Assembly: GCF_900221005.1 (NCBI RefSeq)
Contig: NZ_OBQI01000006.1
Location: 62,001-126,000, forward strand
Length of the DNA stretch: 64,000 nucleotides
Origin: Blastococcus aggregatus
GTDB lineage: Bacteria > Actinomycetota > Actinomycetes > Mycobacteriales > Geodermatophilaceae
Direction: 5' to 3'
Position numbers and translations under genes: made by a program. Below the pieces are notes generated by a model. It had not been told where the DNA came from, made no database searches, and saw only the letters and a list, made by a program, of their open reading frames with translations. How positions within the stretch are numbered: the stretch's first letter is position 1; every line of letters starts with the position of its first letter. Positions 62,350-64,000 of this stretch are shown here, piece after piece.

Positions 62350-62526
62350 ATGACCGTCACCGATCCCGACACCCCGGATCCGCTCAACGACCCCCGCACC
62401 CTGCAGGCCGACCCCGGCGCGATGGGCCAGGGCGAGGACCTCGCCTCCGCCGCCGACGACCCGGTCGCGGCCGGCGAGGACGAGCTGCCCCCTGCCGACG
62501 ACGACACCGGCTACACCGTCCCGTAG
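62350..62526 (+). CDS. Small acidic hypothetical protein, 58 residues
   Basis: ATG frame with strongly acidic disordered sequence (MTVTDPDTPDPLNDPRTLQA..., ending ADDDTGYTVP). No clear ribosome site; no family known. Similar in style to the frames at 32937 and 35574. Confidence 0.55.
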   Translation: MTVTDPDTPDPLNDPRTLQADPGAMGQGEDLASAADDPVAAGEDELPPADDDTGYTVP

Positions 62527-62605: not shown

Positions 62606-62848
62606 ATGGCCACCGGTGAGACCGGCTTCGAGGACGTCTTCTACGACCTCGTCTCCGTCCAGTACCACTCGCTCAAGGCCGGGCACGACTACGGCCAGTA
62701 CGTCCGGGACGCCGAGAACGCGGGCCTGGACGACATCGCGAGCTTCTTCCGCGAGGTGATGGAGCAGGACTCCGCGCGGGCGAAGCGCTGCCACGAGTTC
62801 CTGGGGCGCCTGCAGGGCACCGACCAGGGCGGTCCCGCCACCAAGTAG
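62606..62848 (+). CDS. Small helical hypothetical protein, 80 residues
   Basis: ATG with GAGGAGGA 5 nt upstream. Two predicted helices, VFYDLVSVQYHSLKAGHDYGQYVRDAENAG and DIASFFREVMEQDSARAKRCHEFLGRLQ, recall a half-ferritin-like hairpin, but no complete iron-binding set is evident. Function unknown. Confidence 0.7.
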   Translation: MATGETGFEDVFYDLVSVQYHSLKAGHDYGQYVRDAENAGLDDIASFFREVMEQDSARAKRCHEFLGRLQGTDQGGPATK

Positions 62849-62897: not shown

Positions 62898-63521
62898 TCA
62901 GCGGACGAGCAGACGCATCAGGGACTCGACGAACGCCGCGGCCTGCTCCCGCCGAGGGAGCACCTCCGGGGTGCTCCGCATCATCGTCGACCAGCCGAGG
63001 TAGGCGGTGTAGGCCAGGACCGCACGGTGCCTGGACTCCTCCGCATCGATGCCCGCGGCCACCAGCTGCTCGGCCACGTAGTCGATGCGACGCCGCGTCA
63101 CCCTGGCGAGGACCTCGTCCACCGCCGGATGACCGGGGTGGGCGGCCAGGCCGACGCTGCGGTCGGGCACATCCGCATGCGTCAGGAAGATCGCCGTGAG
63201 CAGCTCCCGCAGGCGGGAGCCGCCGTCGGCCAGCGGCCCGAGCATGGCGATGACCGCGTCGGTCTCCGCGTTCTCCCACCGCTCGAGGGCAGCCCGGATG
63301 AGGTCCTCGCGGTCGCGGAAGTGCCAGTAGAAGCTGCCCTTGGTGGTCCCGAGCGACCTCGCCAGCGGCTCGATGGCCAGGCCGGTCACGCCACGCTCCC
63401 CGAGCACCTCCAGTGCCGCACGGGTCCAGGCATCCCGGTGCTGGCCCGTCGCGACTTCGGGGTGCTCCTGCGCCTGGACGACCGGCACCTGGACTTCCGC
63501 GTCAGCCTGCGTCTCCTGCAT
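62898..63521 (-). CDS. TetR-family regulator whose 5' end lies antisense over a DUF2867 remnant
   Basis: 207 residues from ATG 63521, or 196 from GTG 63488, which fits the usual TetR N-tail better. The HTH is AWTRAALEVLGERGVTGLAIEPLARSLGTTKGSFYWHFRDREDLIRAAL and the C-domain LAYTAYLGWSTMMRSTPEVLP. The first 15-30 residues are read from the complement of the DUF2867 fragment, so they are not native TetR sequence. Targets unknown; divergent from the nitronate monooxygenase remnant operon. Confidence 0.8.
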   Translation of the reverse strand: MQETQADAEVQVPVVQAQEHPEVATGQHRDAWTRAALEVLGERGVTGLAIEPLARSLGTTKGSFYWHFRDREDLIRAALERWENAETDAVIAMLGPLADGGSRLRELLTAIFLTHADVPDRSVGLAAHPGHPAVDEVLARVTRRRIDYVAEQLVAAGIDAEESRHRAVLAYTAYLGWSTMMRSTPEVLPRREQAAAFVESLMRLLVR

Positions 63522-63683
63522 TCCGGCGGGGCGGCGGAGTTCCTGCAGCTCACGACGACCGTGACCGTCCACGGCGCTCTCGGTCGGGCGTACTTCGCGC
63601 TCGTCCGCCCCTTCCACCGCCGGATCGTCCCCGCGATGCTGCGGTCCGCGGTGACGAAGGAACCGGGCACCATGGGCACGTGA
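63438..63683 (+). pseudogene. C-terminal remnant of a DUF2867-like gene
   Basis: An open frame of 81 codons reads VLARRDFGVLLRLDDRHL then DFRVSLRLLHSG, FLQLTTTVTVHGALGRAYFALV and RPFHRRIVPAMLR, the typical C-terminal strand and helix of DUF2867 proteins. Upstream the same frame is plain antisense of tetR, so the first half of the domain is absent. Its TGA overlaps the GTG of the next gene (GTGA), the sign of an original two-gene operon. The family assignment rests on recognition by eye. Confidence 0.5.
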
Positions 63684-64000
63684 TCCACACCCCCCTCACC
63701 CGCCGGTTCGACCTCTCCACGCCGGTCATCGGCGCCCCGATGGCCGGCGTCTCGGGCGGCGCGCTGGCCGCGGCCGTCTCGCGTGCCGGCGGGCTCGGGA
63801 TGATCGGCGTGAGCGGGCGGCACAGCGCCGAATTCGTGACAGCGGAGAGCGCCGTGGCCGGGCAGGACCAGCTGCCGTTCGGCGTCGGGCTGATGATCTG
63901 GACCCTGGCCGACCGGCCGGAGTTGTTCGACGCGACGGTCGCGGCGAGGCCCAGCCTGGTGTCGATGTCGTTCGGCGACCCGGCGCCCTGGGTCGGCCCG
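63680..64000 (+). CDS. Nitronate monooxygenase (NPD family), 3' part missing
   Basis: The first 107 codons from GTG: TPLTRRFDLSTPVIGAPMAGVSGGALAAAVSRAGGLGMIGVSG is the FMN-binding start of 2-nitropropane dioxygenase/nitronate monooxygenase, followed by QLPFGVGLMIWTL. These flavoenzymes oxidise nitronates. The gene runs off the right edge. It overlaps the DUF2867 remnant by GTGA. Confidence 0.88.
   Translation, partial: MIHTPLTRRFDLSTPVIGAPMAGVSGGALAAAVSRAGGLGMIGVSGRHSAEFVTAESAVAGQDQLPFGVGLMIWTLADRPELFDATVAARPSLVSMSFGDPAPWVGP

Follow-up and report, generated by a model that had tools for sequence, protein, structure and literature searches.

Divergent gene pairs of the TetR-tetA type are the closest described systems to the locus analysed here. 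For divergent pairs that include a TetR gene, Ahn, Cuthbertson and Nodwell (2012; PMC3511530) take a spacing of less than 200 bp as a sign of likely regulation. The intact relatives of our locus are alike in layout, with back-to-back genes, a short spacer and paired palindromes. The second point of comparison is a known kind of event, deletion between short direct repeats, which arises by slippage or by microhomology end joining.

The window, that is, the whole stretch of 64,000 nucleotides that was analysed, corresponds to G000:C10:62001-126000 of the Blastococcus aggregatus genome (4.62 Mb in 13 contigs). It contains a TetR-type regulator gene (tetR) abutting a truncated gene of the opposite strand, which is followed by a nitronate monooxygenase (NMO) gene, and it is very probable that this scar is the product of one deletion of ~0.81 kb inside an older divergently transcribed pair. 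The features of the locus are the following:

62606..62848, + strand: gene for a small ferritin-like protein of 80 aa, conserved as the neighbour on the left (matches in congeners)
62898..63437, - strand: retained body of tetR, 179 codons plus stop, original start codon lost (PF00440 and relatives)
63433..63439, no strand: deletion junction with the one remaining copy of the 7-bp repeat TCCCGGT (overlap of blastn blocks, L062)
63438..63521, - strand: complement of the DUF2867 piece in frame with tetR, its new N-terminus if a start there is used
63438..63683, + strand: remnant, the last 81 codons of an SRPBCC-like/DUF2867 protein (PF11066 and the C-termini of relatives)
63680..63683, + strand: GTGA stop-start overlap of remnant and NMO gene (TGA 63681-63683, GTG 63680-63682)
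63680..64000, + strand: NMO-family gene, 320 aa, continuing beyond the window end (L008:5681-6643; PF03060)

The initial annotation had read a DUF2867-like C-terminus in the forward frame at 63438-63683, and this reading was borne out. The frame is open for 81 codons up to a TGA stop and matches the Pfam family DUF2867 (PF11066) with 55.1 bits against a cut-off of 27 (E 1.4e-14); the domain is incomplete, the match being confined to the final 56 positions of the profile (87-142 of 142). Long spurious frames are plentiful in the DNA of the window, and the similarity might have been the accidental product of a G+C-rich antisense frame; however, that score, together with an identity of 69-83%, in frame and in place, to the C-termini of four intact genes (loci L061-L064, described below), leaves such a coincidence a negligible probability, and we rejected it. 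When private amino-acid changes are counted, meaning those at columns where the other four sequences agree, the remnant has 5 against 4, 1, 1 and 1 in the four relatives, a number that leans towards relaxed constraint and is too small to prove it. The only other DUF2867 match of the genome is found at another place on the contig and spans the full profile of 142 positions, as it does in most congeners; a second intact copy of the lost DUF2867-type gene was not found in the window's genome. The GTGA overlap with the NMO gene, noted correctly at the outset, is also present in one of the four intact pairs (L064), and in L061, L062 and L063, respectively, 18, 35 and 62 bp separate the stop from the NMO gene; as the intact loci differ among themselves in this respect, the overlap is a variable detail and not a mark of the deletion.

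The NMO gene is full-length and scores 134.5 bits with PF03060 (cut-off 28). NCBIfam gave sub-cut-off matches only, the best being FabK (141.9 vs 453.1), such that the name is taken from the Pfam family only and the enzyme activity is a prediction. Orthologue matches were obtained in 23/23 same-genus genomes, two of them in pieces: the gene is split over different frames in G016 (C2:1922558-1923512) and lies in pieces in G021 (C1:3505026-3505717; loci L032, L034, L033 and L037). It may be decaying in some lineages, unless the splits in G016 and G021 are sequencing errors. A literature search for Blastococcus together with nitronate monooxygenase found nothing.

The intact DUF2867 protein of G022 served as query in a scan of the named genomes, and the scan, whose reach is confined to close relatives, returned four loci. 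L061 belongs to B. xanthinilyticus DSM 46842 (G022) and is the source of the query itself, L062 to B. aurantiacus DSM 44268 (G002), L063 to B. haudaquaticus DSM 44270 (G024) and L064 to an uncultured Blastococcus MAG (G037); the last two genomes are named Blastococcus, yet in the genome collection they belong to another genus of the same family, g2. The gene order is the same in 4/4 loci: ferritin-like (+), tetR (-), SRPBCC-like/DUF2867 (+), NMO (+) and DsbA-like (-). Intact DUF2867-NMO pairs, which the initial annotation had proposed to look for in relatives, do exist, and they speak to its proposal that a regulator had replaced the start of this operon. Read alone, the window fits a foreign or relocated tetR inserted in place of the first part of a DUF2867/NMO operon, but all four intact Blastococcus loci already have the same tetR divergently upstream, beside the DUF2867 gene, a homologous divergent TetR occurs in four further genera of the family (nine genomes), and the junction shows no more than a loss at a short repeat. 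Insertion is thus very unlikely and was rejected as refuted by the intact loci, unless all of them were secondarily rebuilt. Because the lost stretch holds both the presumed tetR start and the spacer, such that the same event clipped tetR, the regulator is the old divergent partner and not an intruder.

Blastn of the window against the relatives gave two collinear blocks, the left one 82-88% and the right one 75-83% identical (the latter in two pieces in L063). The blocks overlap in the window by 7 bp (63433-63439, with L062) to 11 bp (63429-63439, with L061), so that the breakpoint originally placed near 63.44 kb was accurate to a few bases. In the relatives, the corresponding points are separated by 809 bp (L062) or 812 bp (L061, L063 and L064), all of it absent from the window. 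In the rearrangement as first proposed, the truncated DUF2867 gene and the breakpoint therefore stand, whereas the direction has to be reversed, 809-812 bp having been lost and nothing gained. TCCCGGT is found at both break ends in L061 and L062; the DUF2867 end has it in 4/4 loci, and at the tetR end 6 of 7 bases agree in L064 and 5 in L063. If two break points are drawn at random from the L062 island with a distance of at least 100 bp, at least 7 bp are common to both at a frequency of 0.0015. A short repeat is thus present at both ends of the lost stretch, with a single copy kept and no added bases seen, where the break ends are those of relatives 75-88% identical, the true parent strain being absent from the comparison. 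The sequence comes from a single assembly, in which 0.8 kb could have been collapsed by the assembler; however, the contig is 376,660 bases long and its nearer end is ~125 kb away from the junction, the assembly is 99.87% complete and a common repeat of 7 bp is too short to mislead an assembler. The repeat being only this long, we rejected a collapse, which we regard as extremely improbable. The fused form belongs to the window alone among 38 NMO loci (23/23 same-genus genomes and 15/16 of g2), so the arrangement is far from being conserved in all relatives, the outcome that the initial annotation had named as contrary to its reading.

The loss, its ends and the content that went with it follow directly from the alignment of the window with its relatives, and the single deletion probably ran as follows. 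Before it, the gene of a TetR-type repressor on the reverse strand and, on the forward strand, the SRPBCC-like/DUF2867 gene and then the NMO gene would have been read apart from a spacer of less than 60 bp carrying two 18-bp palindromes, presumably under repression by TetR. Two copies of TCCCGGT, one in codons close to the start of tetR and the other inside the DUF2867 domain, would then have been joined by replication slippage or by microhomology-using end joining; a Ku gene was found in the window's genome. The joining removed the tetR start codon, the spacer, both palindromes and presumably both promoters, and of the DUF2867 gene it took the N-terminal domain entirely and DUF2867 up to about its middle. 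What remains is a regulator that has lost its start and its binding sites, a C-terminal fragment, probably dead, and an intact NMO gene without that promoter, and the leftovers may now be decaying. The scar itself is an ordinary, routine small deletion.

The helix-turn-helix of the retained tetR body scores 44.6 bits with PF00440 against a cut-off of 24 (E 1.3e-11, profile 3-47 of 47), and from residue RDAW onward the protein is 79-89% identical to the divergent TetRs of the four intact loci. Upstream of RDAW, the frame offers GTG 63488, ATG 63521, GTG 63572 and GTG 63617, and all of these candidate starts, up to the first stop at 63698, fall within the complement of the DUF2867 piece; the first residues of the regulator would then come from there, as had been claimed. 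In the intact loci, the presumed start is a GTG 6-8 codons before RD/RE..W, with an alternative ATG 17-18 codons before it in 4/4. The tetR body has no stop and no frameshift, and its private amino-acid changes number 4 vs 6, 12, 10 and 1 in the relatives. On its own branch, calculated by hand from pairwise values for the triple window/L062/L064, dN is ~0.034 and dS ~0.101, such that dN/dS (~0.34) is not above the 0.52 of L062. As tetR does not look decayed, it is still in use unless the deletion is recent; a recent deletion explains both the undecayed tetR and the few changes of the remnant. The amino-acid identity of tetR is highest to L064 (88%), whereas the NMO and flanking genes are closest to L062, and for this reason the module may have a more complicated past. 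Among the five loci, L062 gives the window its lowest pairwise dS in each gene compared (tetR, remnant, NMO, ferritin-like and DsbA-like), which leaves a separate horizontal origin of tetR unsupported. A second close copy of this TetR was not found in the genome, the next best match being 36% identical over 55 residues.

If tetR is still in use, the locus could have been rewired, with a chimeric TetR starting in the DUF2867 complement, the NMO gene expressed by read-through from the ferritin-like gene across the antisense tetR, and remnant and NMO translationally coupled. The tetR frame open upstream with its ATG 63521 and GTG 63488, a helix-turn-helix match complete save two profile positions, the lack of an excess of private changes in tetR, the adjacency of ferritin-like and NMO genes on the same strand in 18/23 genomes, the GTGA overlap at 63680 and the lack of a terminator-like site between 62800 and 63800 would all suit such a rewiring, but an undecayed tetR is also expected if the deletion is recent, the genome offers the regulator no exact palindrome, and no sigma-70-like promoter was found, although shuffles give none either; on balance we consider it unlikely. 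Because the ferritin-like and NMO genes are adjacent and on the same strand in 18/23 genomes, they may share a transcript by ancestry. The scan of the junction region for promoters and terminators gave none, as in shuffled sequence, and since the shuffled sequence also gives none, the promoter scan is uninformative in this DNA of 74% G+C. A search for a guessed DNA motif in the window gave 2 matches vs 0.65 expected and led nowhere. As for a new product, a TetR whose first 17-28 residues come from the strand opposite the DUF2867 gene, expressed and perhaps retargeted, beside a non-contiguous operon with NMO driven from the ferritin-like gene across the antisense tetR, we find it quite improbable. 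A still-used chimeric TetR would act without an exact copy of the palindrome.

The palindromes lie in what the single deletion took away. By the starts chosen here, the spacer of the intact loci is shorter than 60 bp, far below the 200-bp limit of Ahn et al., and carries two 18-bp palindromes in 4/4, namely CCGTACGGTACCGTACGG and, 5-6 bp further, CCATACGGTCCCGTAYGG; for B. aurantiacus, the predicted candidate target DNA of TetR consists of CCGTACGGTACCGTACGG and CCATACGGTCCCGTATGG. Exact CCRTACGGNNCCGTAYGG occurs in 2/23 same-genus genomes, both with the intact module, at two sites each and in the spacer only. With one mismatch, there is one site each in five module-less congeners and a third site in G002; in the control with the pattern reversed, G016 and G021 have one such site apiece. 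A whole-genome pattern search found CCRTACGGNNCCGTAYGG absent from the window's genome at 0 and 1 mismatch; at 2 mismatches there are 3 palindrome sites vs 5 for the reversed control. Outside these genera, the exact palindrome is present in the spacer of 4/9 homologous divergent pairs and 5/9 are without it. This recurrence is good evidence for the palindrome as a predicted, conserved TetR operator. A divergent neighbour of TetR together with a palindrome spacer is present in L061-L064 and absent in the window.

The ferritin-like protein is 82-98% identical in congeners, its Pfam Ferritin match of 13.8 bits being below the cut-off of 24.5. Upstream of it (62350-62526, + strand) the window has an open frame for an acidic product of 58 aa, with matches in 21/22 congeners (not G015) that are 78-93% identical over 29-59 residues. 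In 18/23 same-genus genomes the ferritin-like gene is directly upstream of NMO without the module; the module is found in 3/23, intact in G002 and G022 and broken in G000, and in the remaining two (G015 and G016) both the module and any detectable ferritin-like gene upstream of NMO are missing. In g2, 15 of the 16 genomes (not G036) matched NMO at E 1e-60, and there the module is present in two (G024 and G037), the ferritin-like gene stands beside NMO without the module in 11, and two have neither. The rpoB tree of 23 genomes puts the window with G016 (89/53) and G015 (90/87), neither fork being at the starred level, and G002 with G011 (98/97), G022 being far away; by parsimony on it, the module needs at least three gains or losses. 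The module may be ancestral with many losses, or it may have passed sideways from genome to genome through recombination in its flanks. When the intact island was compared by blastn with the 20 module-less loci of the genus, no convincing relic turned up (best E 0.009). It looks as if the site upstream of NMO were prone to loss in the clade of the window, G015 (L015) and G016 (L034). Family-wide, 14/112 genomes match the alignment of intact proteins at 1e-10, and a divergent TetR stands beside the match in 14/14, the window's scar included. In the nine genomes outside the two genera, no NMO match was found within 1.5 kb either side, and because of this the TetR/DUF2867-type pair looks old and NMO appears to be its Blastococcus-specific neighbour.

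The intact proteins of L062-L064 are 78-80% identical to that of L061, and the two examined, L061 and L064, cover DUF2867 profile positions 6-142. Besides DUF2867 they have an SRPBCC-like N-terminal half, and they are distinct from the product of the DUF2867 gene that most congeners have elsewhere. In B. aurantiacus, a second DUF2867 match (G002:C17:151159-151458, L059) has an internal TGA and is perhaps a broken copy of that other DUF2867-type gene. The N-terminal half of the intact relatives matches Polyketide_cyc2 with 20.7 and 23.7 bits, below the cut-off of 27.4. The AlphaFold model of the intact protein is weak (mean pLDDT 62), and Foldseek with it gave 26 matches at E <=0.001 with TM-scores by query length of only 0.21-0.29, mostly cyclase, START and AHSA1-type structures, which we take to be SRPBCC folds, among them the two-domain aromatase/cyclases BexL (PDB 4xrw) and StfQ (PDB 4xrt); one of the 26 is a chain of the BamACDE complex. 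SRPBCC-like is thus a lead suggested by the model for the lost N-terminal half, not an assignment. A PDB sequence search with the intact protein returned only two mitochondrial ribosomal S14 matches (E 0.11 and 0.14), NCBIfam gave no match to it at E 0.1, and among the papers searched DUF2867 is named in a single one, on osteopontin.

The scar matters for the divergon that it exposed: a recurring unit of the Geodermatophilaceae composed of TetR and an SRPBCC-like/DUF2867 protein with a well-defined 18-bp palindrome, which in Blastococcus sits between the ferritin-like gene and NMO. The intact divergon is a useful by-product, its relatives revealing what are likely TetR binding sites. In the window, spacer, palindromes and target have been deleted together by nature, so that strains in which the module is intact, absent or broken lend themselves to a comparison aimed at the role of DUF2867 proteins. 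Like the deletions known to occur between short direct repeats, that of the window has up to 7 identical bases at its two ends. Unlike divergent pairs of the TetR-tetA type, the window has lost the spacer, the palindromes and most of the target, and the body of the regulator alone is left.
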